Assembly: GCA_944472135.2 (NCBI GenBank)
Contig: OX235263.1
Coordinates: 1,905,517 to 1,969,516 of the forward strand
Direction of reading: 5' to 3'
Length of the DNA stretch: 64,000 nucleotides
Source: Trichobilharzia regenti
Taxonomy: Eukaryota; Platyhelminthes; Trematoda; Strigeidida; Schistosomatidae
Within the stretch, counting starts at the first letter, position 1. Each line of letters opens with the position of its first letter. Shown here one piece after another: positions 5,641 through 62,789 of the stretch. The notes beneath the pieces were generated by a model, which did not search any database, was not told the origin of the DNA, and was given only the letters and a program-made list of their open reading frames with translations. The translations under genes were made by a program, and so were the position numbers.

Positions 5641-6607
5641 GTGAGTTGGGACAGAGAGATGCAAACAGGACTTCATTTATACATATATATATATATATAT
5701 AAAATATGTGATTTTTATAGATCAGTGATAAAAAATCAGAGTGCAGAAAAATGAATATATATATCTATTAATTTATAAGAACACAACTTTGTATAATTAA
5801 GTAGATTCAAGACTGAAATGTAAGCCAACTTCGATCAGAATTAACTGATCTGAAGTTAATCTATAGGCTTAAGGGGCCAAAAGTCAAAAGGAAACAAGAG
5901 TGTTTAGAATTCATTCCCTTTTCAAAGTTCTATTTCCACGGGAAATAACATTCGTCATGAATATAATTCTTCGGACATCTGGATAACTTCACTCACAATC
6001 GTGACTTTATTTCTTCACCGGACTTCACAGAAATCAGTCAACTGAGTAAATGCTTCACAATGGATAAGATTTTATTTTGATAAATCACGCAGTGTTGTGG
6101 AGTGATATTAATGGTGTAGCACCGTGTGATTTATCAAAATAAAATCTTATCTATAATGAAGTTATACTCTACCACAGTGCCCAGGTTTTCTACTTATATT
6201 AAGTAAATGCTTCATTCACTCATCTCGGAACAAGGTGAGTATTACCGTGCACTTGTGTTTTGAAAAAAGCTCTACAATACCACATAAAAGCAAATGTAAT
6301 GGGGGGGATACTCGCCATACTATGTCTCACACAGAAAAATACTCCGTCAATAAACACTGATAATTAGCCCTGGACATGTTGAACGATTTTGTTTTAATGC
6401 CCGGACATCCGCATCGTTATCTGCACTTTACGTTGCTCTCATCCGGACTCCGCTTCCAAGTTTTTATGTAAGTTGTTGAGTGGTGGTTTGGGTATGCAAA
6501 ATTGGTCGGAAATACTAATTAGTGTGTCTTTAGACTGGGTGCCCATCCTGTTTCATGGTTGAAGGCTGTAATCATCCACAGGCAGATGGTAGTTGGTGTC
6601 ACCGAAA
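5641..6607. other. Non-coding upstream region of eIF5 with a hairpin
   Basis: No recognisable gene. There is an (AT)n run near 5682-5700, a PLE-B-like terminal hairpin at 6063-6151, and then the putative promoter and 5' leader of eIF5. No TATA box or splice-leader site could be fixed with confidence. Confidence 0.4.
6063..6151. repeat. Hairpin of PLE-B terminal sequence
   Basis: GATAAGATTTTATTTTGATA at 6063 and its complement ending near 6151 form 26-bp arms around a loop of about 37 bases. The same sequence with CACAGTGTTATACAGTAAT marks PLE-B ends at 19815, 39100 and 57421, so this is a remnant of two inverted PLE-B tips. Confidence 0.6.
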
Positions 6608-8144
6608 ATGGCTATCAACATCAATCGAGAGGTTGAAGATACCTTTTACAGGTACAAGATGCCGAAGCTTGCAGCCAAGGTAAAGCTATACACGACAACC
6701 ACAAGTCATAATCTTGTAGGTGGAGGGAAAAGGAAATGGTATAAAAACAGTCATCGTTAATGTCTCAGACATAGCGAAGGCATTGTACCGGAAACCCATA
6801 TGTATGTCGCAAAATCTACTAATTTGATGGCTTAGATCTCACGAAGTTCTTTGGATGCGAGTTAGGGGCACAGATCCACGTAGACGAGAAAAATGAACGC
6901 TATATAGTCAATGGAGCCCATCAAGCAGATAAGCTGCAAGAACTGTTAGATGGTTTCATCAAGAAGTTCGTATTGTGTCAAAGTTGTGGGAATCCGGAGA
7001 CCACTATGGTTAGTTCTTTGAATTAGTAATCACTAACTTTCATAGCATGTAAACAAAAGAGGCGGTACGGTTGCTACCACTTGCAAAGCGTGTGGCAGTC
7101 AGGGACAGCTAGATGTCACTCACAGACTGACCCAGTTCATTGTGAAAAATCCTCCAGAGCCAGAGGTTACCACAGCCAAGTCAAAGCAGAAAAAGGGGAA
7201 AAAGACCAAAGGCGAGAATGAAAAGACTTCAGGTAACGATGCTTAGTTAACCGTTACGTTTCCAGATGACGACAACGAGGGCAACGCCGGTGGTGGTGAT
7301 GAGAACAATCGCAACAGTCCAGTTAACGCTGACGAAGAAGATGAGGATGAAGACTGGCTGGAAGACACTACTGAAGAAGCACGGCGTCAGAGGATGAGTA
7401 CCTTGTCAGCTATGGCGAAGTCGCTAGCTCTGTGTGACGATGTAGAACGCTCTGAAACTGAGAGAGCTGACATATTCTTCAAACATTTATCCCAAATGTA
7501 CCAGTCTGGCGAAGTCCTGTCACGTCGTAAAGAGCTGAAGTTGGAGGCTGATCGTCTTAGTCTCGGTCCACGTGCTGTGTTGGTTATTGCCGAAGTGCTA
7601 TTCAACAACCCTTCTACCATACTAGGTGATATTAAAGAGTATTCTCCACTACTACTGCTCTTCACGCGGTCTGGTGAAGACCAGAAACGAGCTCAGATGT
7701 ACACGTGGGGTGCAATGGCGAAGCTCATCGAGAGGCACGCAGATCAAAATCTGATCAGCAAAGCGTGTCATCTCCTGAAAGCTTTGTATGATAATGACAT
7801 AATTGAGGAGGACGTTATTCTAGCATGGTACGACAAAGGGGTAAGTTGCATATATGTGATATTTGACAAAATACAGCCGTCTAAAAAATTCGTATCTCGT
7901 GAATTGAGTGCCAAGATTCTGTCTCGTTGCGCTCCCATGGTGACGTGGTTGAGACAAGCAGAGGAGGAAGAGTCAGAAAGTTCCGAGGAAGAGACAGAAA
8001 CCAGCAGCCCGAAGGTATGTGTCTTCCATTATTTTCTAATCTCCTTAGGTGCCACAACCAACTAATGGTGTGAACGGCTCAAGTGCCGTTGCTACCAACG
8101 GGGTGGACGCTGAAGAAGACGATGTTGACATCGATGCTATTTAA
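6608..8144 (+). CDS. EIF5: Eukaryotic translation initiation factor 5 (eIF5), complete, 7 exons
   Basis: Exons: 6608-6679, 6720-6801, 6836-7008, 7046-7232, 7266-7840, 7877-8014 and 8049-8144. Together they give 1,323 nt, 440 residues plus stop. eIF5 is the GTPase-activating protein of the eIF2-GTP-Met-tRNAi ternary complex in the cytosolic 43S/48S initiation complex. The N-terminus ([20 protein letters not shown]) keeps the GAP arginine finger at Arg15. A C2-C2 zinc domain has CQSC at 99-102 and CKAC at 122-125. An acidic linker (DEEDEDEDW) precedes the W2/HEAT domain at about residues 225-395, which ends in an acidic box ([12 protein letters not shown]). The C-terminus DDVDIDAI matches animal eIF5. 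All introns are 33-40 nt with GT-AG ends, and length and domains fit the family (about 430 residues). Confidence 0.96.
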
Positions 8145-9347: not shown

Positions 9348-9662
9348 ATTAACTGAAGAATTGAAAACATTTATTTCCCGATACGAATTTAAAACAAGCA
9401 ATAAAGGTTAATAAAGCAGGATTTAATGAATTCATCAAATTTCGGTGGAACTCGTCAGCTGAATACTCTACATACACGAATACATATACTTTTGAAATTA
9501 CATTGGGAGATATAAGACTGTCATATATCTCTCAATGTAATTTCAAAAGTATATGTATTCGTGTATGTAGAGTATTCAGCTGACGAGTTCCACCGAAATT
9601 TGATGAATTCATTAAATCCTGCTTTATTAACCTTTATTGCTTGTTTTAAATTAACTGAAGAA
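9348..9662. mobile_element. Foldback insertion with 13-bp target duplication
   Basis: Near-perfect inverted arms of about 124 bp (about 9390-9513 and 9524-9649) are separated by about 10 bases. The direct repeat ATTAACTGAAGAA at 9348-9360 and 9650-9662 brackets the insertion. It interrupts the LINE-A RT region. No ORF lies inside. It may be a hairpin MITE or an inverted dimer left by a retroelement end. Confidence 0.75.
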
Positions 9663-13523: not shown

Positions 13524-14490
13524 AGTATGCCTTATGCATCAGTGTTGAGATTCTGTCAGCAATCAAGTGAACTATACATTCGCCCATTTCACTCGCGTTA
13601 TCCTTGTATTGTAGGAAACAAAGAAGACAAATCCTGTGGCATCATTTCACATTTGATATGGCTGAATTGAATGCCAATCACGCTCAGATTTTTACTGAGA
13701 GGAAGTTCATGTGGCTCTTTATTATGTTAGCCTCTTTACTTCAACGGACTAGGGTGGTATTTGCCTGCCTTTAGCCAACTTAGACTTTTGAATATAAAAG
13801 TAGGATAAAGTGTATTTATGTTTTATTCCGCCGGTATCTTATCATTTTGGTGGGTGGTGATGAGTGTAAAGAGCTGCAATATACTTTTGTATGTTGGACG
13901 ATAATTAAGAATAGTGTTAAGTTAGCAGAGTATAACGAATTGCTGTTATTATATTTATTATGCGATTGAAGTTCCATGAAAAAAAGCAAAGGTAGTGAAA
14001 TTGTACTAATGGGTAAAGTTAAACTAAGCACCAGTAAGTGCCAACGGGCAAATTACGTCGACCTCAGTAATCATCATATGATAGAGATGATTTCTACGAA
14101 TATAAACTACACACCTTCATGAAAATTGTGAATTAAAAGGCATGGAAATGTCTGACGTGTGACAAAAATGGCTCACACTTCTGGATGAGAGTATCAAGAG
14201 AGTAATTTAACCACAATCTCAGTGCATCTACCTATCTAGTTCTCCTAAGGCTAACTTTAACCCTAATCTTTCTTTCACCTAATGTGAAAATATTCCTAAA
14301 CCAACCGTAGTCTAACTCGAACCGACCATAATGTCACCCTTATTAGGTTAACCTAACCGTAACGCGTCTTCGCTTAGCCTAAGTCTTAACTTAATCTTTG
14401 CCAAACTTAACCTAAGATTTATCAGATATCCGGTTTTTAATATCATATCATTTCACTAAGCATGCTTTATTCATGATTAAAATGTTGATT
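13524..14490. other. Non-coding, with degenerate CCTAA-rich stretch
   Basis: No gene recognised. From about 14230 to 14420 the + strand is rich in degenerate CTAACC/CCTAA words without a regular period. Confidence 0.35.
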
Positions 14491-14499
14491 TGTAGAGAT

Positions 14500-14720
14500 T
14501 TGATTGGTTATAGGATTTTATAATGAGCTGATATCGGTTAGAAAACCATTGGAAAGCCTGGGAGTACGAGACAGTTGTTTCTTTAGCCTAGTGTGGGACT
14601 CATCGCCAATACTCGCTCACCGGGGTTCGGACCGACGACCTTCCAGTTACGAAGTGAGCTCGCAGACTATTAAGCCGTTTAAACCCAATCCAATGGCTCA
14701 TAGATTCCAACTTTTACCAT
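14500..14720 (-). mobile_element. SINE-C copy (tRNA-headed, hammerhead-derived tail)
   Basis: On the minus strand: tRNA-like head with B-box-like GGTCCGAACCC, then CGATGAGTCCCACACTAGG and a GAAAC motif, then the conserved tail (complement of GCTGATATCGGTTAGAAAAC). The core is mutated relative to the copy at 18843. Confidence 0.7.
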
Positions 14721-14904
14721 TTCACGGTATAGTGCCACCACTGACCAATGTCATCGGTGACAACTATTTGTCTTCACACCGGACCTATTGTACCCTACTG
14801 ATCAGGACTTCCCACCAGAACTCAGGTGACTTCCTACCTGAATAGGGCCAATCACTAGTGAGTATCAGATTCAAGTGTCGGTTTGTTTGCAGAGATTTGA
14901 CTGG

Positions 14905-16553: not shown

Positions 16554-17570
16554 GAGCTGGTGTAATAATAATAATAATAATAATTATTGTCCCCTTGGGA
16601 TCCGAGTGGAACATAGGGCTTCAACAACACATCTCCACTTTGTTCTATTTTCTACTGCCCTCTTTAGCTGGATCCACGATTGCCCAAACTCTTTCTACTC
16701 TTCCTCGCACGATCTCCTCGATGTAACTCGCATTGACGACCAACTCGTCGCTTACCATTCGAATTCCACTCGAGCGATGGCCAGCATTGAGCTCGATGTC
16801 ATTTGACGGTCTCCTCGATGTATGGCCGATCCATTTCCATTTTCTCCTACATATTTCTTGAGTGATCGGCCGTTCGTTGGTTTGTTCCCACAGTTTCTTG
16901 TTACTTATTCTTTCTAGCCAGCTTGTTGATCTTCAGTATAGATCCAGCGAAGACAGCTGTTGATGAAAGTGTTCAACCTGTTGGAAATCCTTCCCTTGAC
17001 GAGCTGGCAAGTTTCTGACCCGTATAGAAGGAGTTGACTGACTGACTTCACATTGATGTTGAAAATCCGAATCTTGTTCTATTTACTGGCTGATTGCTGC
17101 AGAAGATTTCCGAATTGGTTTCAGGTCGATGAAGGCATATCTCGCCTTTCCGATTCTGATTTTCACAACTTCCGACTGTCTGTGGTTGAAGTCATGCTTC
17201 CTAGATAAGTGAAGGAAGTAACCTCTGTTAAATCTCTCTCGTTGATGGTAATTGGTGCTCGTTGTTGTTGTTGTTGCTGTTGCTGTTGCTGAGGTTCGTT
17301 GGTTATCTCCATCACCTTTGTCTTCTGAATTTTCACCTGAAATCTATTCTGTTTTTGCTACCAGCTTCAGCCAGTTTGTTGGTTTTCACCTGCAAGTCTT
17401 CAAGTTTGTGTGACAACATTGGACATATATCATCTGCGAAATCCGGATTATATAGATGGAGTATTCTTTTCGTTCCAACGTGTTCCTGACTCCTTACTCC
17501 CCACACACAGTCTGACGCATAATCCAGTCCACCACAATTAAGAATATCATGGGTGGATGGTGGCTAGCAG

Positions 17571-17630
17571 TGGAATCCAGGATGCGCATTTCGTCCTATT
17601 TGGGACTCGTCAGCAGGATGTACCTGCATT
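17571..17630 (-). ncRNA. Hammerhead ribozyme, Smα type, unit 1
   Basis: Minus strand: CTGACGAG, stem II TCCCAAATAGGA, CGAAA, a minimal stem III (TGCGCA), cleavage site ATC, then CTGGAT. Stem I of this unit has one mismatch (CATCCTG instead of CATCCAG). The motif matches the well-known schistosome hammerhead. Confidence 0.85.
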
Positions 17631-17900
17631 TCTCAGTGAGTGATGATGTTCCCACCGAGGCTCGAACCCAGTACCCATAGTTTTGAACGCCAAAGCGTTA
17701 TCCACTAGACCACTTGGGCCACGAGAGCCACCTCTTGTGCAACGGGTCTTATTAATTATTGAATTGAATTTTTGATTTTCCCGTCGATTGATTGGACCGA
17801 AGTGCTCGGTCTCAGGTTGACATGTCGCCTTCTTGTGCAGATGCTTCGACGATGTCCGGGCATTTAGTTAGTATACAATTGGTGGATGGTGGTTAGCAGT

Positions 17901-17960
17901 GGAATCCAGGATGCGCATTTCGTCCTAATTGGGACTCGTCAGCTGGATGTACCTGCATTT
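17901..17960 (-). ncRNA. Hammerhead ribozyme, Smα type, unit 2
   Basis: Minus strand: stem I strand CATCCAG pairs fully with CTGGAT. Core CTGACGA and GAAA are intact, with stem II loop CAATTA. It is expected to be active, given the catalytic core and the known family. Confidence 0.88.
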
Positions 17961-18229
17961 CTCAGTGAGTGATGATGTTCCCACCGAGGCTCGAACCCAG
18001 TACCCATAGTTTTGAACGCCAAAGCGTTATCCACTAGACCACTTGGGCCACGAGAGCCACCTCTTGTGCAACGGGTCTTATTAATTATTGAATTGAATTT
18101 TTGATTTTCGCGTCGATTGATTGGACCGAAGTGCTCGGTCTCAGGTTGACATGTCGCCTTCTTGTGCAGATGCTTCGACGATGTCCGGGCATTTAGTTAG
18201 TATACAATTGGTGGATGGTGGTTAGCAGT

Positions 18230-18289
18230 GGAATCCAGGATGCGCATTTCGTCCTAATTGGGACTCGTCAGCTGGATGTACCTGCATTT
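18230..18289 (-). ncRNA. Hammerhead ribozyme, Smα type, unit 3
   Basis: Same as unit 2, with perfect stem I and intact CTGACGA / GAAA. It sits in the truncated third unit, which ends inside its tRNA-like head at about 18360. Confidence 0.88.
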
Positions 18290-18540
18290 CTCAGTGAGTG
18301 ATGATGTTCCCACCGAGGCTCGAACCCAGTACCCATAGTTTCAAACGCCAAAGCGTTATCAAAAATTGAATTCAATAAGAATATCATCGGTGATAATAGA
18401 CAGCCTTGTCTTGCTCCTGAATGTACTTCGAACGCCTCACTGAGTTTTCCGCTGTAGATCACCTGACATGTGGCATTGTCATATAGCCACATGTTGAATG
18501 AAGTTGATAAAGACTCGAGGTACTCCGTATAAATAGGGTG

Positions 18541-18612: not shown

Positions 18613-18744
18613 TATCGACTTCCCACTGGAACCCAGGTACCTGGGTTCGTGACCAGTAGGGTGCAGCAGGTCGGGTGTGAGGACAAATACTCGCCGAAGA
18701 CATTGGCTAGCGGTCACGCTATGTCGTGAATTGGCAGAAGTTAG

Positions 18745-18945
18745 AATTCATAGGCTGGCCATTGGATCGGGTCCCAGTGGCTTAATGCTATACGAGCTCG
18801 CCTTGTAACCGGAAGGTCCTAGGTTCGAATCCCAGTGGGTTCGTACTGCTGATGATTCCCAAACTGGGATGAAACGGTAGCTGTCCAGTACTCCCTGGTT
18901 TTCAATGGTTCTCTAACTAATGTCAGCTCATGATGAAATCCTGAA
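18745..18945 (+). mobile_element. SINE-C copy with intact-looking hammerhead
   Basis: A tRNA-like head (GGTCCCAGTGGCTTAATGC A box; AGGTTCGAATCC B box) is followed directly by a hammerhead architecture and the tail TCTAACTAATGTCAGCTCAT. Other copies lie near 14500, 20000, 20200, 32300, 32500, 43000, 50450, 51400 and 51600. Confidence 0.8.
18843..18891 (+). ncRNA. Candidate hammerhead ribozyme in SINE-C
   Basis: Stem I: GTACTG (18843-18848) pairs with CAGTAC (18886-18891), 6 of 6. Core CTGATGA at 18849-18855. Stem II TTCCCAAACTGGGAT at 18856-18870 (five pairs, closing U-U mismatch). GAAA at 18871-18874. Stem III CGGTAGCTG at 18875-18883 (C-G, G-U, G-C, loop TAG). Cleavage triplet GTC ends at 18885. 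All conserved hammerhead positions are present. Sequence outside the core differs from Smα. Confidence 0.7.
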
Positions 18946-19760
18946 ATAATATTAGTATTCATAATACAAAATTATAAGATAATGGGGATAGTAAGTTTCA
19001 GCATAGAGTTACATATATGGGAGAATAAATCAGCCATTTTTCATGCTAATTACTCAGGAAGTCGGAAGTTTCATGTTTTACACTACTTTTATCACATAGG
19101 ACGTAGGTGGGTGAGTCAAATAGGGTATCGTTGAGTTTTTATTCTTGGTTGTGCCATCGAGCATGTAATCGTTTATACTGACTTCTATTCTTACCAGATG
19201 AGATGCTAGGCGGGGAGAGCTGTGAATAAAGAGGGTGTGTTGAGAGTCAGGCAATATGGATTTAAATCATTTCTCAAATGAGTTTGGGTGTCTGTCGACT
19301 ATGAAAGTAAAGACCCGACTCAGTAGTGGTACACCACTTTCCTTGCTAACTATACCTTTAATACCCTTCTCCTCATTATGATACAGTCATTTTTGAGTAG
19401 TCCTGGAAAGACTCAGGAGGGGGGGGCGGTAAAGTACGATAGGTAAGATGCAAGAGTTAATAAATCGTAAAAGTAGAGGTTGAGTGTTACTCACCAGATT
19501 GTCTTAAGTTCTTAGTGTAGTAGGTTAAACGGAGTATTTTCTTAGAAATAGACTGGATATGAAGAGACCAAGAAAGGTCGGAGGTATTTCATGCTTAACT
19601 TATTCTCTATATCAGTGTCCTCTAAGCTACAAGCACCATGTGAAGTAATAACTGCGTTAAGATCATGTTTATTCCTGACGATGAAATTGACTGTCTCACA
19701 TTTGGAGGGATTTGAGGTAAGACCATTAAGCTTAAGCTCAACTAATTAGTTGTCAGCGCT
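18946..19760 (-). mobile_element. LINE-D (CR1-like) 3' coding fragment
   Basis: From about 19050, minus-strand frames carry broken versions of the end of a CR1-like RT (SNPSKCETVNFIVRNK; FPGLLKND; a decayed LKVVSRIS block). Better copies are at 46020 and 48300. Stops are frequent. 18946-19050 holds nothing recognised. Confidence 0.55.
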
Positions 19761-19814: not shown

Positions 19815-20790
19815 GATAAAATTTTATTCTGATGAAATCACACAGTGTTATACAATAATATTTACTGATGATGTTTCGAGCACAAATTGTTACTGCTCAT
19901 AATCATATCAAAGCACTACTCACATAAATTTCTTACTTCATTTATGTACACATATTGGATTTGGAGGGATTTTTGTTTGTTTGATTGGATGGAGGACTTC
20001 ATCATGAGCTGAAATCAGTTAGAGAACCACTGGAAAACCTGAGAGTACTGGACAGCTGTTTCGTCTTGGTTTGGGACTTTTCATCAGTACGGTAGGTAGC
20101 TCGTCGACCAGTAACCCACTGGGACCTGATGAAGTCTACGAGATCGCCTTGCAACCAGAAAGTCCTGGTTTCGAACCCCTGTGTGTACTGACGAAGAGTC
20201 CAAAACTAGGACGAAACAGCTGTCCAGTACTCCTAGGTTTTCCAGTGGTTCTCTAACTGATGTCAGCTCATAATGAAATTCCCCATCCAATCATTTATAT
20301 ACATGAGTAAAAAATGACGATTAGATATTTGAATAAAATAAATATAAGTTAAAGTACATTCGGAAATTATATTAGTGTTATCAATTATATGGGAAATAAG
20401 ACGAGTATTGTTAATCACTAAGATGGGAAATGAGATGTTTTTATAGTAAAATAAATAACTTAGAATATTATAATATGAAATGAATTGAATACATTTTTAG
20501 CATTATTTATTATCCTCTGATTTGACTGGTAATAATATTCTCCATATCTCTGGTATTTGCATTGAGTCATCTCTGTTGCATGTGTTGGGTGTAGACTCTA
20601 TGAATCAGGATTCATGTATATAAATGAAGCAAGAAAGTTATATGAGTACCTTGATATGAATATGAATAATAAATTGTGCTCGAAAAGTTATTAGTAAATA
20701 TCTCTGTATAAAAACACAGTGTAATTTTATGAAAATAAAATTTTATCCACAATGGAATTATACTCTGCCACAGTGACCAATTTTTATACT
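19815..20790. mobile_element. PLE-B ends in inverted orientation around SINE-C pair
   Basis: Left end 19815-19930 (GATAAAATTTTATTCTGATG, CACAGTGTTATACAATAAT, TTACTGATGATGTTTCGAGC) recurs inverted at about 20640-20760. The inside holds no RT, only an inverted SINE-C pair and AT-rich DNA. It looks like a gutted PLE-B or two solo tips. Confidence 0.5.
19985..20295. mobile_element. Two SINE-C copies, head to head
   Basis: A minus copy (about 19985-20105) faces a plus copy (about 20106-20295). Both carry CTGA(T/C)GA and GAAAC with CAGTAC, but have lost one CTG before the core and three bases of stem III compared with 18843, so the hammerhead fold is compromised. Confidence 0.7.
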
Positions 20791-22167: not shown

Positions 22168-23230
22168 CTTTTAATTGCATTTCATACTACTACTATTATT
22201 ATTATTTTATGCATTCACACCTAAGATTCAATTCCCTCACCTAATATAACTTCTTAAAAAAACCCGTATTTATATACGATTGTACAGCTTGATGATAAAT
22301 TCGTTGTTGAAATCAGTCTCTTCGCTGGATCACTTGTTTTGACTTTCTCTATGTGTTACAATGGGAATTTTCCACGAACTAAAAAATAGACTCATATTTT
22401 CTCAACAGACAGATTACAAAGGAAGCAAGATGCAGCATTTGAACATTGTACTGAATGAGTTAATACTCAATGCCTTTTGCCTCCCAACTCCTTCCAATTG
22501 ATACCATCATTGAGAGTATCAGTCCCTCCCTACACCTAACTCAGTATACTCACGACTCCTCATGAAATGTCCAGGAAAAAGCAATGAACACTGACTCGTA
22601 CACATATCAAAATATGGAAATGCAAACATCAGTTCTCACAATGAGCACTCGTGCCCAATCGAAATATCTATTCTGCGTGCTAAAATACCCCAAGTGTGAA
22701 CTCGTTACTCACACTATTGTGTTAATGAACCGAGAAAAAATCTATACAGTTAACGAAGATTAGTACGAGTCGAAAACGGCCATTCTCGTCGATATATTGA
22801 TTTATTTGAACAGCATTCTATATACCATACAAAACATAATCAATGATACTGAGGAAATTTTATCAATTAGGTCTCGAATATAGTCAATAAGTTGGCCTTA
22901 CTTAACGTATTAATGTTCTAAATTAGGTCAACACAACTTGGTTAACACTTTTCTTTAGTATGGTTGGAAGTTCTTCGAGATGGTACTCCGTTTAGTCTCC
23001 ACTCAACAGACAAGTTAGTAATAATAATAATAATAACTGTAGATATAATAGAAAAGATTTGTAGCCCAGGTGGATGATTCTGGTGTAGGTATGTTCTCTC
23101 AGTTGGATGGCTTAGTCAAATCCCCAAACAATCCAACTCACAGAACGCACCTATACCAAAAGAGCGGCTTTATTCCAAATAGTTTTTCTCATACAAATAT
23201 GTAATTTTTCGTATGTAATACAATATTGCA
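22168..23230. other. AT-rich region without recognised gene
   Basis: Short (TTA)n and (AAT)n runs near 22190 and 23020. Near 23045-23075 a remnant of the foldback-associated sequence (AAAGATTTGTAGCCCAGGTG) can be seen. Otherwise nothing. Confidence 0.4.
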
Positions 23231-23278
23231 TCAAATTCTATCCTCGCATAATAATTATTATGCGAGGATAGAATTTGA
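23231..23278. repeat. Perfect 48-bp palindrome
   Basis: 24-bp arms with no spacer: TCAAATTCTATCCTCGCATA is followed by ATAATTAT and then the exact complement. It adjoins the LINE-B 3' end. Confidence 0.85.
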
Positions 23279-23282
23279 TTTA

Positions 23283-23945
23283 GAATTTAGTTCCTAGAAG
23301 AACATAGGGCTTCAGTCGAACGTCTCCATTGCGTTCGGTTCTCTGCCAACGTTTTCACCTGGCTCCACCTCTGCCCACATGCCATCATCTTCACCAACTT
23401 GCCACTTCCCACTCGGCTTCCACTCGATTGATGGCCTGGTGTGTGATATCACTCACTTGATGATTTTCTTAGAGTATGACCAGCCAATCCACTTCCATTT
23501 CTTCCTGCATATTTGTTGGACAGTTAGTTCCTTCTGGGTTGGTTCGTTCATTGTCAGAGATCCATGTTGCTGATATCTTCTGGCTGACCACCTGATCTTG
23601 AGTATTGAGCGAAGACAACTGTTGATGAAGGTGTGTAGTTTGTTCGAAGTGCTCTTTGTGACGCGCTAGCCAAGTCTCTGATCTGTATAGTAGCACTAAC
23701 TTCACATTGGATTTGAAAATCCGAAAATTTCTTTCATTCATGCTGATTGTTGTCTGTTGTTGTTACTGTTGGCCAGTGATCTTCATCACCTCTGTTTTCT
23801 CTATGTTCACCTGCATTCCAATCTTCTCTGGATGCTTCTTCTGCCAGCTTGTTGCTTTTTACTTGCATATCTTCCAATTTGTGGGAAGTCAGACATATGT
23901 TATCGGCCAAGTCCAGATCCTCCAAGTTTTATCGTTGCATAATAC
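23283..23945 (-). mobile_element. LINE-B 3' copy
   Basis: Minus-strand remnants of the LINE-B C-terminal region (FKSNVKLVLLYRSETW; QQLSSLNTQDQVV; QEEMEVDWL) and upstream (DNICLTSHKLEDMQVKSNKL). Broken frames, truncated before the RT core. Confidence 0.7.
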
Positions 23946-25505: not shown

Positions 25506-25667
25506 TCTAGTCTTCTAGTCGGTCCCAAACCCGGGGAAAGAGGAAGGTTTGGGAGTGGGACTGGTGACCCTACCTCGAGAGATCAATTCATTTACTAAAG
25601 TAAACTTCAAAACACAAGAAAAATATTTAAAAAAAAACTTATTCTTAGCTGGATTCGGACAGATGAT

Positions 25668-26420
25668 ATGATGTGGGCTGGTGAAAGCCTACGGAAAGCC
25701 AGTCAGCCCATGTGTCTTCATTCAATGAAAGCACAAGTAACGGTAGGGACTTGGGAAGGAAAATATATTGCACTGATTAAGGCACTCTATTCGTACTCAT
25801 ACAGCCAGGTGAGGGCTTACGGCGAGCTGTCATCTGAACTGATGACGACCAGTGGTGTCCGTCAAGGATGCCCATCATCCCCTTTTCTATTCAACTTCAT
25901 CATAGATGTGTTAATGGACTTAACCCTAGGTGACTTCAGTGACTCAGGGATTGACTTGCTACCTGGGAATAATCTCGTTGACTTGGAATATGCAGACGAT
26001 ATAGTCCTTCTAGGCGAAGACGCTGACGAAATGCAGAGTCTTCTAAACACCTTGAGCCGCAATCTACGAATGTTTGGCATGCGATTCGCTCCCGCCAAAT
26101 GCAAGATGATGTTACAGGACTGGACTACATCGACGCCTAGTTTAAAAATAGGAAGTGAAGTGGTAGAGCACGTTGACCGCTTCACTTATTTGGGAAGTAC
26201 CATCAGCCCCAACGGGCTGATCTCTGACGAAATCTCAGCACGAATACAAGGGGCTCGTTTCGCATTTGTTAGTTTACGCCGACTCTGGCGTAGACGAGAT
26301 GTTCGACTATCGACCAAAGGGCGGGTGTACTGCTCATCAGTCCGCTCCGTCCTCCTTTATGGTTGTGAGACCTGGCCACTGAGAGTGGAAGACATGAAAA
26401 GGCCAGCTAGCTGTCTTTGA
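25668..26420 (+). pseudogene. LINE-A reverse transcriptase, partial
   Basis: A 250-codon frame. GVRQGCPSSPFLFNFIIDVL is motif B, LEYADDIVLLGEDADEM carries catalytic YADD, and VEHVDRFTYLGSTI is motif E. RSVLLYGCETWPLRVEDMKR ends the RT part. Motif A is absent because of truncation. The frame continues as the ORF at 26467-26820 after a shift. Confidence 0.85.
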
Positions 26421-28079: not shown

Positions 28080-28495
28080 AACTTATGTTTAAATCAATTT
28101 TAGATTTTTCCGTCGATTAATTGATTGGATTGAAGTGCTCGGTCTCAGGTTGACATGTCAGCTTTTTGTGAAGATGTTTCGTCGATGTCTGGGTGTGTAA
28201 TTAGAAGCCGATATGTCAACCTGAGTCCGAACACTTTAGTCCAATCAATCGATGGGCAAATCTAAAATTGAATTAAATAATTAATATGACCTATTGCACA
28301 AGAGGTGGCTGGCTCTCGTGGTCCAAGTGGTCTAGTGGATAACCCTTTAGCATTTGAAACTATGGGCACTGCGTTCGAGCCTCGGTGGGAACATCATCAC
28401 TCATTGGGGAATGCAGGTGCATCTAGTGACGAGTCTCAGATAGGACGAAATGAGCATCCTGGGTTCTACTGCTAGTCATTATCCACCAATTAACG
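28080..28495. mobile_element. Smα-type repeat, inverted partial dimer
   Basis: 28086-28200 (CGGTCTCAGGTTGACATGTC on +) faces a plus-strand unit from about 28200 to 28495 that contains a tRNA-like head (GTGGTCTAGTGGATAACC, GCGTTCGAGCC) and a hammerhead. Compare the direct array at 17551. Confidence 0.75.
28414..28473 (+). ncRNA. Degenerate Smα hammerhead (C3 to G)
   Basis: Core reads GTGACGAG instead of CTGACGAG. Stem II GTCTCAGATAGGAC and CGAAAT are kept, and cleavage site ATC with CTGGGT follows. Change of C3 without a matching change of G8 should abolish cleavage. Confidence 0.75.
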
Positions 28496-31972: not shown

Positions 31973-32227
31973 AAAAAATCTGAAGCCCAATATAATTTTT
32001 ATAATAATATTAATAATGATTATAATCACCTTATTCCAAATAGCAATAATGATTATAAAGAATGGAATTTTCAGTGTTCTTTTAGTACATATTGCAACAA
32101 TGTAGCTCCTTTTATAAGTATGTACATGCGTAAAATTAAATAAAAAAACCACAAAAACTGAAAGTTGGTGAAAAGATAATGAAGTATATAAGTAGATAGT
32201 TTCATAGATAATACATGTAGTTTTTAC

Positions 32228-32590
32228 GAATTGATCACGGATTGTTATCAGTTAGAGAACCATTGAAAACCAGCCGGGGAGTACTGGACAGCTGCTGTTT
32301 CACCCTAGTTTGGGTATCATCGGCAGTACGCACCCACTAGGATTCGAACCCAAGACCTTCCGGTTACAACGAAAGCTAGCTCGTTTACCATTCAGCCACT
32401 GGGACCGATTCAATGGCTTATGAATCCTAACTTCTACATTCATGAGCCATTGAATAGGGCCCGAGTGGCTGAATGGTATACGAGCTTGGCTTGTAGCCCC
32501 AGAAGGTCTCCCAAACTAGGATGAAACAGCTGTCCAGTACTCCAGTTCTGGTTTTCAATGGTTCTCTAAGTGATATCAATCCGTGATCAA
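32228..32590. mobile_element. Two SINE-C copies in inverted orientation
   Basis: A minus copy (32228-32435) and a shorter plus copy (32440-32590) meet around AATGGCTTATGAATCCTAAC. The plus copy has lost the 5' half of its hammerhead core. Confidence 0.75.
32281..32329 (-). ncRNA. Hammerhead-like fold in SINE-C, one core change
   Basis: Minus strand: GTACTG pairs with CAGTAC (stem I, 6/6). Core is CCGATGA (U4 to C). Stem II ACCC/GGGT. GAAA, stem III CAGCAGCTG (three pairs, loop CAG) and site GTC follow. It supports the family-wide architecture, although the core change probably blocks catalysis. Confidence 0.6.
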
Positions 32591-32754
32591 CTCGTAAAAA
32601 CATAACTAACCCTTACAAACCAAACTATAGAAAATACATGTAGTAATAATAATAGTCTTCCTTGATACTTTGTAGTTCACTTACTGAGTTAAAAAGTTTA
32701 TAAGTTCTTTTCTCACATCTGACTGTCTTTTCATACAAAACCCACTGCTAAATA

Positions 32755-38130: not shown

Positions 38131-38369
38131 AGAAGCGTTGGTTTTGATGTGGTTTTGTTCTCTGAGCTGGATGGTTAGTTTGCGAAGCTTTCATCACTTT
38201 ACTGGGTGACATCTTCAGCGCATACTTCAATTTGAAGTATGCGCTGAAGATGTCACCCAGTAAAGTGATGAAAGCTTCGCAAACTAACCATCCAGCTCAG
38301 AGAACAAAACCACATCAAAATCATCCACCTGAGCTACAAATCTTCTCTATAATATCTAGAAGCGTTGGT
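38131..38369. mobile_element. Foldback insertion with 12-bp target duplication in PLE-B
   Basis: AGAAGCGTTGGT occurs at 38131-38142 and 38358-38369. Inside are perfect inverted arms of about 90 bp meeting at CTTCAATTTGAAG (about 38226-38238), plus a single-copy tail with TCATCCACCTGAGCTAC. The PLE-B reading resumes exactly after the duplicate (EALVLNNYPIKF). Confidence 0.85.
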
Positions 38370-42590: not shown

Positions 42591-42954
42591 ATATAATTTC
42601 CCAATATGTATAAATCAAACTCCTAATAAACACTCTGTTAACCAAGTTTTTTCTCTTCTGCCGTTACAAAATAGACTTGACATTTTCAAAATAACATGAA
42701 CAAATCATAAGTAATATCAGTCGCGCAAAAGGTGGCTCAGTGCACTATTGATTATGTGTTAAACTTAAATCTCCGTAGGCATTCCATCAATCAATGAGAT
42801 GAAGGTATGTTCAGCTAGTGATTCCTGTATGAGCAAAGATGCCAGTCTAGTGCTGACCAACATCCACCAAAATACCAGTTAGTTTCTTTTTAGTGAATTC
42901 TAATATACCAATAAAAAAATGGTATAATGTAATATATAATATGAATTCACCCGT
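42591..42954. other. AT-rich non-coding region
   Basis: Nothing recognised. Confidence 0.35.
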
Positions 42955-42956
42955 TT

Positions 42957-43410
42957 GATCATGGACTGACATCATTCAGAGAACTATTGGGAAACGAGGG
43001 TGTACTAAACAGCTGTTTCCCCCCACTCTGGGACTCTTCAGCAGTGTGCACCGACCACCAGTATTCGAACCCAAGACCTTTCGATTACAAGGCGAGATCG
43101 TAGATCATTCAGACACTGGGGCCTGATCCAATGGCTAGCCCATGAATTCCACCTCCTGCCATTTCGTGATAAATACAGCTCAATCTTAACTCAGTATCAC
43201 AGGTGAGTAACTGTTCTTTTGACTGACTTGTTGGACCCTTCTGGTTATGACTTCACACTAGAAAGTCGCAGAAGTTTGAAGTGAACACAGATCCTGTAAC
43301 TGAATGATCTGTGAGCTCGCCTTATAACAGGAAGGCCCTGGGTCCGAACCCCGATGGGTATGTACTGATGACGAGACCGAATCTGAGACAAACACGCTTG
43401 TTCAATACTT
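42957..43410. mobile_element. SINE-C copies (minus, then partial plus)
   Basis: The minus copy (42957-43150) has a tRNA head (complement of GTATTCGAACCC) and a hammerhead-like segment at 43002-43047 with intact CTGAAGA and GAAA. The partial plus copy (43300-43410) keeps the head and CTGATGACGAG but not GAAA. Confidence 0.65.
43002..43047 (-). ncRNA. Hammerhead-like fold in SINE-C, diverged
   Basis: Minus strand: ACACTG, CTGAAGA, stem II around CCC/GGG, GAAA, CAGCTG, site GTT, TAGTAC. The conserved core residues are kept, stem I has about four pairs, and stem III is short. Activity uncertain. Confidence 0.45.
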
Positions 43411-44090
43411 TTAATAATAATAATTTGCTTTATTCCAGAAACAGTACTAGTGGCACAGTCTGGGATTTTCAGCACATATCTATAATAGTGCATCTAATTT
43501 TATCAAACAGTTAAAAGGAGTATTTCGAAAAGTATTTAAAAAAAACAAAAAAAAACACAAAATAGGAAGAAAAATGGGAACATATACCAAGAAGTAGAAA
43601 GGAAAATAAACAACATAATAGTCAATATCTCAGTATTGGGTAGTGGAAGCTATGATATGTTTATGCATGGTGAAAAGTAAAACTATATCCTACAAGAAGT
43701 TGTGAAATGATATTTAGAATGTCTATCACCAGGATGATCAGTTAATTTGATTGAACTACACTAAACAATCATAAAATAAACATTTCAGGGTTTCTTATTT
43801 TTATTGTCAGCACTAATGCAGTGTTTGTCGTGGTAGTGTGAGTAATCCTGAATAATACGAAATTTTTAAGATGGTGATAGTGGCGTTCACAAACAAGATT
43901 GTCAGTTAAATAGTGCCGAACAAAGAACAACTACAAAACTAATATTACATGATGGTTAATGACAGGACAATTTTGTAATACTCATACTGATAAAATAGTC
44001 GGACCCAGTAGATATACAAAAGAAGGAATAGAGTAAAGTACAAAAAATAGTAAGCCAATGTTAATAAATTAGGTATCTAAGTATGTTTAA
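43411..44090. other. SINE-A-like tail and non-coding DNA
   Basis: 43418-43480 (GCTTTATTCCAGAAACAGTA, GGGATTTTCAGCAC) resembles 47908 and 33625, the body of a SINE-A relative. The rest is AT-rich and unrecognised. Confidence 0.4.
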
Positions 44091-46778: not shown

Positions 46779-47578
46779 AAAAGAATGGAAACTGAACAGA
46801 GAGTACTCTTTTCGATAACTCCTTCATCATCAGGCTCTACATTTATACACACATTGTAGTGAATGAATGAATTAGTGTTATGAACGACATTAATGCTGTT
46901 TAAATAACACCAAATCAATAATGTTGATAAATTACACCTGAATCGCATCAACATAGAATAAGCTGAATGTCAGAAACATTAAGAAGGATAATAGTACGAA
47001 TTCATGAGTTTATAGCTTCTACTGAAGGCCAGGGCAATAGTAGGGTTTGGACTTGCTTCTTTTGGACACAGAGAGAACATCTCCCAGCATGGCTAAGTAA
47101 AGGTGTAGTGAAAACTATTAACAGCTCGATGTTGGAACATCTGGTGCAAACCGGCCACAAAGCCAGCGTAGAAGAATCCTTCTCTATATTATACCGGGTG
47201 CCAAATAAACTACCTAAAACATCGAAGCACCGTAGGCTCCATACAGCAGAGGCTATTGCGATTCGCCTCAAACAACCAGCACTCTGTGTCCAAAAGAAGC
47301 AAGTCCAACCCCTACTATTGCCCTGGCCTTCAGTAGAAGTTATAAACTCATGGATTTGTACTATTATCCTTATTAATGTTTCTGACATTCAGCTTATTCA
47401 ATGTTGATGCAATTCAGGTGTAATTTATCAACATTATTGATTTGATGTTATTTAAACAGCATTAATGTCGTTCATAACACTAATTCATTCATTCACTACA
47501 ATGTGTGTATAAATGTAGAGCCTGATGATGAAGGAGTTATCGAAAAGAGTACTCTTTGTTCAGTATCCATTCTTTTTA
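46779..47578. mobile_element. PLE-C 3' end as inverted repeat
   Basis: Arms 46779-47073 and 47282-47578 are reverse complements. The plus ORF 46967-47407 encodes the nuclease tail (LPAWLSKGVVKTINSSMLEH, AEAIAIRLKQPALCVQKKQV, LLLPWPS) as in other PLEs, and the minus strand repeats part of it. The outer ends carry CTGATGATG and CGAAAAG (47522-47545), which recalls a ribozyme. Confidence 0.7.
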
Positions 47579-50240: not shown

Positions 50241-50392
50241 ATAATAAGGTATATAACATACGAACGCACGCATAAATGCACACACACAAAGTGAGACAAT
50301 AGTTTAATCAATTAAAGATACTCATTAAAATTCTGAAAGACAGTGATTACATAATAAAGGAAAGTGTAGTGTTGGTTTCCAGAGATTGGATT

Positions 50393-50600
50393 GCTTATAG
50401 AATTAATCGTGAACTGACATCAGTTAAAGAACTACTTGAAACTAGCAGGGAGTACTGGAGAACTGTATCGTTCTGACTCGGGATTCTTCATTACTGAGCA
50501 CTTGCTGGGATTCGATCCCTAGGACCTTTGGGTTACAAGGTGAACTTATAACATGAACTATTCAGCCAGTCCAATGGTCTATGAATTTTAAATTCTGCCA
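50393..50600 (-). mobile_element. SINE-C copy
   Basis: Minus strand: head with complement of GGGATTCGATCCC and tail TGAACTGACATCAGTTAAAG on +. The hammerhead core is mutated (AGTAATGAAGAATCCC). Confidence 0.65.
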
Positions 50601-50856
50601 TTTTGAAACTGTCTGTCAGTGTCATTGGTATCTGAAGAACTAAAGGAAAAGATTCTTCAATGCTGCCTTTATGTCCAATTTATAACATCGAACTGTTGAT
50701 GGTCATTACGACACTTTTATTTAGCCGCATTGGTTGGCCTTACGAACCTCAGAAAACTAAGTTACTAAGGCAACGATAAACGTAACTACCTCCATAGGAG
50801 CAGTTGAGTTGATAAGTCCAGGAAGAGGTGGTTAGCCTAGAACCTTTGTCTATGAG

Positions 50857-51260: not shown

Positions 51261-51304
51261 AATTTGACAATTTTGCCTTCCTCCTAAGTCTTTTACAAGT
51301 TATT

Positions 51305-51655
51305 ATGTACTGACATCGGTTAGTAGACCATTGGAAAACCACCGCGAAGTACTGAACAGCTGTTTCGTCAGCCGAGTTTACGACTCTTCAACAGTACGTA
51401 TCCACCGCCAGGGTTCCAACCCAGGACTTTCCGGTTGAAGGGCGAGCTTGTAGACCGCTAGGCCACTGGGACCCAATCCAGTGGTTCATGAATTCCAACT
51501 TCTGCCTATTCACAATATAGCGCGACCACTAGCGAATGTCACCGGCAAATATTTGTCCTGATGAAGAGTTCCAAAGTAGGACAAAACGGTTGTCCAGTAC
51601 TCTCAGGCTTTCCAATGGTTCTGAAACCTATGTCAGTTCATGATAAAATCCTGTA
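51305..51655. mobile_element. SINE-C pair in inverted orientation
   Basis: A minus copy (51305-51510) faces a plus partial copy (51545-51655) with CTGATGAAGAGTTCC and CAAAAC instead of CGAAAC. This is the third such inverted pair in the window. Confidence 0.65.
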
Positions 51656-51949
51656 AGCGATCAAATCCCAGCAAACAACACTTGAATATTGTTGTTTTAA
51701 TTGTTGCATTAATTGTTTTCTTAATTTTATCCGATAGTCAAAATTTAGTAATACACTTCTAATTTATTATGTATGCACAATTTAGTGTTCATAATGATAT
51801 CGTCGGCTGTAAATAAGGAACTTCAAAACTCGGCTTTTCACAGTCCTCGTTCTTCTTTCCCATTCCGTATAAGCGTAATAGAATTTCTCACAAGAATTTC
51901 CCAGGGTTTATTAATGAGGGAGTATACAGGAAATAATAGTGATTGATTG

Positions 51950-60882: not shown

Positions 60883-62775
60883 TTTGATAGCCTTATTAGA
60901 AGACGGAGACTATCTGAAAAATGTGATGTATTAGCGCTATACATTTCGAACAATCTGATCACACATTTACTTGTCAAGTCAATATATATATAGAAAGGTT
61001 AAATTAAACAAAGTGAGAGAAAACGGAATTAAGAATAATTAACACAAACGTTTGGTAATCCAATCAAATAAGGATTACCAAGGTAGGTTAAGAGTAATGA
61101 CAAACTGTTTTTGAATACACAAGGGGGGCTTAAGTCTATGAATAGCTATAGCCTCAGCGTATTTCAGTAAACGCCCTTGACCGTTTTTATAGATGACCTT
61201 AAAGGCTGAGTTAACATCAATCTTATGGTTCATCTCGATTAGATGTTTAGCTATAGACGAATTTGGTAGTCTGCCACCTGCATCTATTAGCTTGTCACAA
61301 TTCATCTGTTTTTCTAACCATTTTGGGATATGCTCTCCCACCCTCACGTGCAAAGCGCGATTACTCCTCCCTATGTATGTATGTCCACACACACACGAAA
61401 ATTGGTAAATTGTATGGGATGTGATATAATCACTTGTGCACTTTTGGGGTTTACAGTGAAGCATATTTTTGGCTTTTTCCACAATTACAAGCTGGGCTGC
61501 ATAGTAGGTTCTACGGATGATTGAATTCAACCTTTGTCTCACAATCCTACTGTTTATTTCCCCGTTATATGGTAATTTGATAAAAACCTTTTTCTTAGGG
61601 ACGGTATGGATTGTAGGTTTAGAGGCTAGTTGACTTCTACACCTGTTTAAAAATTTCAAAGGATATCCGTTTTCAACAAGAGTATCCATTAATATTTCGT
61701 TTTCTCTGTCCATAACATCAGCCGTGCAAATACGCTGAATCCTCTTGAATAGGCACTTCACCAAGCCCCTCTTATACTGTAATGGACAGAAGCTGTGAAA
61801 ATTAAGGTATTGCCCTGTCCAAGTGGGCTTTCTGTAGATAGACCGTCTTATTGAGCCATCATCTCTTCGACTCAGAAGTATGTCTAAAAATGCTAGCTGG
61901 TTGCGACTTTCTTCCTCACATGTAAGACTAATATGATTTTGTACAGAGTTAAGTCTGTCTAATAGGCGACTCGCATCTTCATGATCGTCACATATCAAAA
62001 TGATATCATCTACATATCTCCTATAAAAGGGCAATTTTGAAATTAAATCAAGGGATAAGTTTTCAACATAAGACATATACACGTCCGCTAACAAAGGTCC
62101 TAATGGACTCCCCATAGCAACGCCATCCACTTGTCGAAAATGTTCGCCTTCAAACGTGAAATGGACGTTGTCAGTACATAATAATAATAAATCTTTCAAA
62201 TAAGTTAAAGGGAAAGGGAATGAAAAACAACTAGAAGATATATAGTCACAAAGAATATCAACAGTCTTAATCAATGGTACATTAGTAAACAAAGAATTAA
62301 CATCAAATGAATACATTTTCCTATCTTTTATGTTCATATCTACAAGACAGTCAACAAGTTCAAATGTATCTTTCAAAGTAAACTTACATAATTCATTGCG
62401 TACTGGGCTTAAAATATCAGCTAACCATTTTGCTAGTTTATGTGTAGGAGAGTTACACATTGAAAGAATTGGACGTAATGGATTGTCAACCTTATGAATT
62501 TTAGGTAGTCCATAGAGGTTTGGAAAATCAGATCCCATGGGTTTCAAGGAGTTAAACTCCTGTTTATCGATAACGTTCATGCCACGAAGTTTTACTAAAT
62601 GAGAATTTACTTTTCCTTCCAATTTTCTGATATCATCCGAAGGAACATCGGCTATGAATTTATTTTCGTCATTAAGGATGAATAACATTTTTGTTTTATA
62701 ATCATTTCTGTCCATTACAACTACACCAGATCCTTTGTCAGGTTTCAGAATAACTATATCGGATCTATTACGCTT
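60883..62775 (-). mobile_element. PLE-A Penelope-like element, 5'-truncated copy
   Basis: From 62775 on the minus strand: RT, GIY-YIG, a 3' end with a TGGTAATCC/GGATTACCA hairpin (about 61053-61081), then at 60985-60883 the sequence that starts the head-to-head plus copy (ACAAGTAAATGTGTGATCAG). That terminal segment is PLE pLTR-like. The coding part is open throughout. Confidence 0.85.
61075..62715 (-). CDS. PLE-A reverse transcriptase with GIY-YIG endonuclease
   Basis: 546 codons, open. The Penelope signature YGLPKIHK is at 68-75. Motif A is SFDVNSLFTNVP (136-147), motif B VAMGSPLGPLLADVYM (199-214), motif C YVDD (234-237), and thumb-like KPTWTGQYLNFHSF follows. The GIY-YIG nuclease is at about 437-520 (YQFSCVCGHTYIGR, then HVRVGEHIPKW), ending PPLCIQKQFVITLNLPW. 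The RT copies RNA at nicked sites and the GIY-YIG domain cuts target DNA. The true N-terminus is missing: the plus copy shows about 284 more residues upstream of this Met. Confidence 0.92.
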   Translation of the reverse strand: MDRNDYKTKMLFILNDENKFIADVPSDDIRKLEGKVNSHLVKLRGMNVIDKQEFNSLKPMGSDFPNLYGLPKIHKVDNPLRPILSMCNSPTHKLAKWLADILSPVRNELCKFTLKDTFELVDCLVDMNIKDRKMYSFDVNSLFTNVPLIKTVDILCDYISSSCFSFPFPLTYLKDLLLLCTDNVHFTFEGEHFRQVDGVAMGSPLGPLLADVYMSYVENLSLDLISKLPFYRRYVDDIILICDDHEDASRLLDRLNSVQNHISLTCEEESRNQLAFLDILLSRRDDGSIRRSIYRKPTWTGQYLNFHSFCPLQYKRGLVKCLFKRIQRICTADVMDRENEILMDTLVENGYPLKFLNRCRSQLASKPTIHTVPKKKVFIKLPYNGEINSRIVRQRLNSIIRRTYYAAQLVIVEKAKNMLHCKPQKCTSDYITSHTIYQFSCVCGHTYIGRSNRALHVRVGEHIPKWLEKQMNCDKLIDAGGRLPNSSIAKHLIEMNHKIDVNSAFKVIYKNGQGRLLKYAEAIAIHRLKPPLCIQKQFVITLNLPW

Positions 62776-62789
62776 GTTTATTATAATGG

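Follow-up and report, generated by a model that had tools for sequence, protein, structure and literature searches.

SINE-C, a dispersed repeat of Trichobilharzia regenti that we analyzed in a 64,000-nt stretch of contig OX235263.1 (the window) and in copies from across the genome, carries a type I hammerhead ribozyme and is often inserted as two arms joined head to head. We think it probable, with real room for doubt, that SINE-C is a non-autonomous retrozyme-like element that moves by two-ended target-primed reverse transcription of a hammerhead-bearing RNA. The features that point this way are a canonical majority ribozyme, direct repeats, 3' ends that vary little, truncated 5' ends and the pairing of long with short arms.

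The original prediction had assigned every hammerhead element to a single SINE-C copy, which is laid out as follows.
18647-18946, plus strand: SINE-C copy of the short-tail type, corresponding to about positions 69-362 of the monomer (BLAST against 14512-14807, 51302-51559 and the 393-nt monomer).
18771-18842, plus strand: tRNA-like head with an A-box-like stretch from 18776 and the B box GGTTCGAATCC from 18822, the presumed internal Pol III promoter.
18843-18891, plus strand: type I hammerhead with a U-U at 10.1-11.1 and three additional bases in stem III (core inspection and Rfam).
18892-18946, plus strand: tail of the short type, ending near GAAATCCTGAAA (sequence and BLAST against the monomer).

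Base inspection of 18843-18891 bore out the 6-bp stem I, the CTGATGA and GAAA motifs, stem III and the GTC. All core bases are present together with the A15.1-U16.1 pair, stem III consists of four standard pairs (one of them G-U) with a 3-nt loop, and cleavage is predicted after 18885, with the GTC preceding. The claim of completeness was therefore right for the core and wrong for stem II, whose first pair (10.1-11.1) is a U-U mismatch; the Rfam Hammerhead_1 model scored the copy at 30.8 bits, below the gathering score of 34. Despite this sub-threshold score, the match exceeds chance, with E-values of 0.0013 for the whole window and 3.6e-6 for 181 bases. Folding alone did not favour the hammerhead (-9.6 versus -12.8 kcal/mol), nor do canonical copies take the hammerhead shape in their minimum-energy folds. 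A U-U as the first stem II pair is a known natural variant that is more active than other mispairs (PMC3088659), and one axolotl hammerhead family also has U-U where helix II begins (PMC7229834); since the variant is natural and supports activity, the 18843 ribozyme may perhaps not be dead. The element limits of 18745-18945 proved too narrow, as BLAST similarity begins at about 18647. Taken as a whole, the earlier observation of a ribozyme is correct for the SINE-C family, of which copy 18843 is a poor witness.

Three SINE-C copies had been named previously, all of which are present; a profile made from four copies recovered 11 in the window at 65 bits or more, those four included, and the next match, at 26.1 bits, was Sm-alpha. 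The copies other than 18647-18946, with their hammerheads and paired units, are listed below.
14476-14807, minus strand: old SINE-C copy with a hammerhead at 14564-14612, core GCGATGA (profile and BLAST).
19951-20290, no single strand: head-to-head unit of two SINE-C arms (inverted arms 19982-20090 and 20185-20293, 89% identical).
20045-20090, minus strand: hammerhead, 38.0 bits, core ATGAAAA (Rfam and core inspection).
20185-20230, plus strand: hammerhead, 46.1 bits, core ACGAAGA (Rfam and core inspection).
32222-32626, no single strand: head-to-head unit of two SINE-C arms, a single insertion (arms 91% identical, gapless).
32281-32329, minus strand: hammerhead of the minus arm, core CCGATGA, U4 changed to C (core inspection and Rfam).
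32498-32540, plus strand: remnant hammerhead of the plus arm, its 5' half deleted (core inspection and arm alignment).
42938-43127, minus strand: SINE-C copy with a hammerhead at 43002-43047, core intact (profile, core inspection and Rfam).
43287-43429, plus strand: decayed SINE-C copy, head to head with 42938-43127 (profile search).
50368-50603, minus strand: old SINE-C copy with a hammerhead at 50452-50497, core ATGAAGA (profile and BLAST).
51285-51559, minus strand: SINE-C copy with a hammerhead at 51349-51397, core TTGAAGA (profile, BLAST and core inspection).
51552-51687, plus strand: SINE-C copy 5' truncated at the ribozyme, with a hammerhead at 51555-51600, 34.2 bits (Rfam and BLAST).

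The entire core is kept in two of the window's 11 copies, in each of which stem II opens with a mismatch, so that none combines an intact core with a standard pair at that position; the SINE-C copies in the window that pass the Rfam cut-off are those at 20185 (+), 20045 (-) and 51555 (+). The copy at 32281-32329 had been put forward as evidence of structural conservation because it retained the fold with different stem bases. The fold is indeed kept, the core is damaged by the change of U4 to C, and the 10.1-11.1 pair is U-U. This copy was absent from the Rfam matches on the whole window, and a search of 441 bases returned it as Hammerhead_HH9 at 25.9 bits, below the cut-off of 52. Its U-U pair and three extra stem III bases are common to 18843, so its differences mark a subfamily, and they lose their force as an argument for conservation; the same variant recurs in genome loci L011 and L063. 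The third copy named, 43002-43047 on the minus strand, keeps CTGAAGA and GAAA as claimed and is otherwise weaker than described, with a G-G at 10.1-11.1, four of six stem I pairs, a U at position 17 and an Rfam score of 27.1 bits.

Several unrelated features lie in the same window. A long, near-perfect inverted repeat at 9450-9588 gives sub-threshold Rfam microRNA matches on both strands, as do 6056-6158, 23221-23288 and 38183-38279, and these sites look like small foldback elements. At 26178-26255 (-), mir-3492 scored 53.4 bits, above its cut-off of 44; the frame at 25599-26420 on the opposite strand appears reverse transcriptase-like by eye, and the mir-3492 model may contain retrotransposon sequence. 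The eIF5 exon at 7247-8062 is closest to Trichobilharzia proteins: it differs from that of T. regenti by one mismatch and two gap openings over 239 positions (the record is without a stretch), and from the T. szidati protein by six mismatches and one gap opening over 257 aligned positions.

The genome searched comprised 954,079,586 bases in 548 contigs and yielded 4971 and 6362 first-look SINE-C candidates with the two queries, all unvalidated. We read 75 non-self loci, 36 recovered with query 18745-18945 and 39 with query 14476-14740, one short fragment row having been left out of each; these are the best matches to two queries and not a random sample, so the set leans to intact and similar copies. 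A complete ribozyme is carried by 119 arms, among which the majority base is canonical at each core position (CUGANGA, GAAA and NUH), with three stems. At C3, 87 arms have C, 29 have A and three have another base or none; at U4, 108 have U and 11 have C; the remaining core positions are canonical in at least 112, and all 119 arms carry C at position 17. An intact core is found in 66 arms, 57 combine an intact core with the 10.1-11.1 pair and sound stems, and 22 match the commonest 46-mer exactly. Rfam scores this 46-mer, a canonical type I hammerhead, at 54.1 bits.

Rfam RF00163, applied to 20 loci chosen from 56, gave 33 matches at or above the cut-off (34 bits), with at least one in every locus, and 16 of them reached the best score of 54.1 bits (E 1.1e-11). 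The notion that the hammerhead is a chance motif or an artefact of the model, to which the sub-threshold score of the 18843 copy could be credited, is ruled out as chance by these genome matches and retains a negligible probability overall. Taken by themselves, the 11 window copies give AUGAAGA as the majority core, with A at C3; this lacks CTGANGA and, judged by the criterion set in the original prediction, would have counted against the ribozyme. The dead consensus that it implied was overturned by the 119 genome arms, which shows how a small sample can mislead. The consensus of many copies and the covariance model, which had been proposed as the means of checking the family, both came out in favour of the ribozyme, and the SINE-C hammerhead should, as predicted from its sequence, be able to self-cleave. 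At least one core departure occurs in 53 of the 119 arms, a few of them possibly through alignment register; together with the A at C3 in 29 arms, this indicates that some SINE-C lineages propagate although their ribozyme is probably inactive.

These departures are also what one would find if the hammerhead were a relic without a role, kept only through the youth of the copies, and in the window copies the ribozyme is no more conserved than the head or the tail (mean pairwise identity 0.710, 0.707 and 0.699). Such a relic is unlikely in our judgement, given that the commonest form is canonical, that exact copies of it stand in loci with different tails (L012, L037), and, as a weak point, that divergence in 85 genome arms is 0.021 for the core without C3 and 0.028 for the stems, against 0.048 for the head and 0.032 for the tail. 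Random column sets were as conserved as the core in 822 of 20,000 draws without C3, which was left out post hoc, and in 8228 of 20,000 with it, so that conservation of the core above the rest of SINE-C is weak. Compensatory evidence in the stems is almost absent: when the six commonest types were considered for each of 12 stem pairs, the sole two-sided change between standard pairs was C-G to U-A at 276-286, in two of 119 arms. With so few pair changes, it is homology and the intact majority form, rather than covariation, that argue for the ribozyme.

The SINE-C monomer, read where the L037 arm runs over into the next unit, is 393 nt long and consists of a 5' region of about 185 nt, a tRNA-like head with Pol III boxes, the ribozyme at 261-306 and a tail that ends at or near ...ACACTTGAA. 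The predicted hammerhead cut falls after position 300, the 3' product starting at 301. The head lies directly 5' of the ribozyme, which agrees with the predicted layout of a ribozyme directly after a presumed promoter. We take the A and B boxes to be such from inspection of the window majority by eye; B-box columns are 0.114 divergent versus 0.191 elsewhere in the window copies. The heads score 14.3 and 18.6 against the Rfam tRNA model, below the cut-off of 29, and ARAGORN reports one of them as tRNA-Tyr, a call that we distrust. Four consecutive T's shortly downstream of the ribozyme (18899-18902 and equivalents) were seen by eye in six of the ten aligning window copies, three T's standing at this position in the L037 monomer; it is possible that the four-T run stops Pol III before the tail, as a weak stop.

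A partner LINE or Penelope-like element would share the 3' end ACAAACCAACACTTGAA; BLAST found no LINE tail sharing this end inside the window. Frames at 61075-62841 (-) and 46967-47407 (+) resemble, by eye, a Penelope-type reverse transcriptase with its end domain, and are candidate machinery for moving hammerhead RNAs. For metazoan non-LTR retrozymes, a review (PMC7761336) states that no conserved motif reveals an autonomous mobilising retrotransposon.

The window contains a further hammerhead repeat, against which the separateness of SINE-C can be judged.
17552-18360, minus strand: Sm-alpha tandem array, 329-bp period, 2.5 copies (three hammerheads, 62.5-65.8 bits).

We presume this array to be Sm-alpha from its resemblance to the Rfam consensus, and a dispersed copy at 28421-28464 (+) has a hammerhead of 36.6 bits. 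Sm-alpha, known from Schistosoma, thus occurs in Trichobilharzia regenti as a tandem array and a dispersed copy. Like Sm-alpha, SINE-C has a tRNA-like head with a type I hammerhead downstream, a short stem III and a unit of 300-400 nt. The two differ in head, stem I, stem III, tail and 5' region; moreover, about 30 nt separate the head from the ribozyme in Sm-alpha, which is in tandem here, whereas SINE-C is dispersed and often head to head. Differences in head, stem I and tail had been predicted and are real, but stem II is nearly identical, SINE-C having GTCC-CAAACTA-GGAC and Sm-alpha GTCC-CAAATA-GGAC or the loop CAATTA. Because this likeness of stem II and loop 2 exceeds what the core demands, it suggests common descent of the ribozyme module. 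That SINE-C is Sm-alpha in disguise was considered and rejected, as the similarity is weak and confined to the ribozyme and the head/B-box region; matches of 100% and of 43 nt between them were artefacts of overlapping inputs. The analysis upholds a second hammerhead family distinct from Sm-alpha. From the original interpretation, this second family and the head before the ribozyme survive; the structural-conservation argument and the plain 200-bp SINE do not, the latter giving way to a 393-nt monomer with a head-to-head pair in 40 of the 75 genome loci.

Hammerheads in schistosome SINEs are established as a class (PMC8490949, PMC2770079, PMC5993326). The S. mansoni W-elements W25.2, W26.2 and W27.2 have type I hammerheads with a short stem III that are weakly similar to Sm-alpha; W25.2/W36.2 variants have been tested, three of five candidates being active in vitro (PMC8490949). 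Sj-alpha of S. japonicum is described as a SINE-like element with a hammerhead (PMC2770079). By description, SINE-C is like the W-elements in its type I hammerhead and short stem III and like Sj-alpha in being SINE-like with a hammerhead; it could be a relative of Sj-alpha or of W25.2. Among the matches listed when we searched freely accessible literature on hammerhead ribozymes, schistosomes and SINEs, no paper described SINE-C, and we found no report of Trichobilharzia hammerhead ribozymes or of inverted-dimer SINE retrotransposition. Pattern scans of a viral contig collection and a genome contig collection gave 0 matches each.

Four head-to-head pairs account for eight of the window's 11 copies, and random placement did not yield four pairs in any of 100,000 trials. 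Direct repeats are convincing at two of the four: the 32-kb unit is flanked by 32204-32221 and 32627-32644, alike at 17 of 18 bp (0 of 400 random pairs as good), and the 20-kb unit by 19938-19950 and 20291-20303, alike at 12 of 13 bp (8 of 400). The flanking repeat is weak at the 51-kb pair (26 of 400) and unconvincing at the 43-kb pair (56 of 400). Among genome copies, outer direct repeats of 9-18 bp were found in 26 of the 33 pair rows examined, without a random control; one of the 26 (L018) is a TA run, and the seven rows without a placeable repeat (L011 twice, L035, L041, L044, L051 and L061) were dropped. Lone copies had direct repeats at six of 20 loci, with at most six of 500 random pairs as good, a seventh candidate (L057) being discounted since its repeat is the element's own sequence. 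The position of the repeats outside 26 of 33 pair rows suggests that pairs were inserted as units, and we take it that each pair probably represents one insertion event.

The two arms of a pair end differently. One full-tail arm is combined with one about 30 nt shorter in 37 of the 40 pair rows, three having another end and none joining arms of the same type; a stricter count over the first 56 loci found one short and one long arm in 27 of 27. The 3' ends of 119 arms longer than 80 nt fall at 380-394 in 73, at 355-374 in 40 and elsewhere in six, and single copies are mostly long-tailed and 5' truncated. At the junction of the short arm, element and target overlap by a mean of 2.38 nt, with at least 2 nt in 18 of 26, against a chance expectation, from a simple formula, of about 0.43 nt and 9%. 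Such overlap is expected if a target end base-pairs with the RNA, in most cases at UGAAACC. In L032, a single case, the subfamily tail is extended and the short arm is extended with it, which preserves the offset of about 30 nt as if it were measured from the 3' end of the RNA.

In a quick tree of 85 arms, made without a shuffled control, short and long arms were intermixed, with 29 changes overall and 24 among the 54 paired arms. Arms were sisters in 10 of 27 units and not in the other 17, which may partly reflect poor resolution, and identity over ribozyme and tail was 0.961 within units and 0.939 between them. We read this as arms probably made anew at each insertion, from one RNA or two. 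A single master inverted element of the foldback type, moving whole with the hammerheads as passengers in its inverted ends, would agree with the uniform end arrangement in 37 of 40 pair rows, many of them with outer direct repeats, but not with short and long arms that fail to form separate lineages, with arm extents, and hence junctions, that vary from unit to unit, or with the prevalence of long-tailed, 5' truncated single copies. This master element was rejected on the quick tree, with its lack of a shuffled control, and we hold it to be very improbable.

The pairs could instead have arisen by snap-back, in which the first-strand cDNA folds back and primes itself. SINE-C would then be a plain tRNA-derived SINE that shares an Sm-alpha-type hammerhead, its pairs being snap-back cDNAs and its arms that cross unit ends template jumps. 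The 10 units with sister arms favour this account, as do the arms of the 20-kb and 32-kb window pairs, which are mutually closest (87%), and a stem II and loop 2 that are nearly those of Sm-alpha. As the only source of pairs, however, snap-back was rejected on the 17 of 27 units without sister arms, within the limits of resolution; arms of some units (L029, L033) differ at marks such as C3, and snap-back alone does not account for a short arm that begins about 30 nt further in, with microhomology to the target. We therefore regard the plain-SINE account as doubtful, though more deserving of attention than the relic.

In the two-ended mechanism that we favour, SINE-C RNA whose hammerhead is either uncut or religated, and which is at least sometimes multimeric or circular, would be reverse transcribed at a nicked target. 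The first target end would prime at the end of the tail and give rise to the long arm, while the second, pairing with only a few bases some 30 nt inward (UGAAACC in most cases), would prime the short arm, templated by the same circle or by a second RNA; the two cDNAs would then meet and be joined head to head. In LINE-1 twin priming, two target ends likewise prime reverse transcription, leaving an inverted part and microhomology. Both SINE-C arms, by contrast, carry the same region, so that one linear RNA of a single unit would be insufficient for the pair. The hammerhead would most likely serve to yield a unit-length, circularisable RNA, as has been proposed for metazoan retrozymes.

Arms that cross the ends of the monomer, running from position 1 into 393, bear on the template. 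They occur in 15 of the 75 loci; among the 119 arms longer than 80 nt, 104 stop before the unit end and 15 cross it. Thirteen arms stop at BLAST position 1, and eight arms, on reading of the sequence, run about 10-18 nt past position 1 into a second ACCAACACTTGAA (L012, L023, L024, L027, L035, L050, L054 and L057). In 11 crossing loci that we read, the end of the tail is joined directly to TACCAAT, and in L016 the join differs by one base. Of the 15 crossing arms, 11 end between 314 and 361. None of the 75 loci (stretches of about 1.4-1.9 kb) held two complete units in tandem, a partial second unit being present in 15.

Crossing arms imply templates that were multimeric, circular or switched. 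They would fit reverse transcription of a circle with some strand displacement, RNAs with short terminal repeats together with template transfer, or tandem transcripts; among these, the circle would best suit a hammerhead. Template jumping between linear RNAs, or rare tandem loci, could also produce such arms. None of the 119 arms longer than 80 nt ends at the cut (301), in a set whose queries favoured ribozyme-holding arms, and the insertions are thus without a clear cleavage footprint. Two independent arms, L013:851 and L080:940, the latter the shorter, begin at CTCCCAGG (monomer position 306), five bases 3' of the predicted cut, and these starts are possibly an inexact footprint of a cut template.

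In PMC7229834, metazoan non-LTR retrozymes are described as non-coding repeats of 150-450 bp with a type I hammerhead, arranged in tandem from dimers upward, whose target duplications, where present, exceed 4 bp. SINE-C, non-coding at 393 nt and with a type I hammerhead, has the size and type so described, but differs in having complete tandems in 0 of 75 loci and common head-to-head pairs. Retrozymes are moreover expressed as circular RNA, as SINE-C may be. We put forward only tentatively, as a possibility we would not bet on, that SINE-C insertions are a fossil record of circular hammerhead RNA returning to DNA, with two primers acting at once, the cDNAs joined, and a self-pairing inverted copy shielding its own transcript. 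With a circle as template, reverse transcriptase might complete one turn and continue slightly beyond it, which would produce terminal redundancy or an arm that crosses the unit ends. If this were true, the inverted copy would pair with itself, both ribozymes would be unable to fold, and the transcript would be protected from self-cleavage.

Collectively, the SINE-C hammerhead family is a further member of the established schistosome class and adds a hammerhead family for a schistosome of birds. The new aspect, and the more interesting part, lies in the two-ended head-to-head insertions and in the arms that cross unit ends. With candidate copies in the thousands, 3' ends that are nearly fixed, a second favoured site of priming, target-site duplications and crossing arms, SINE-C would make the return of hammerhead RNA to DNA, by way of a circular template or not, testable from sequence.
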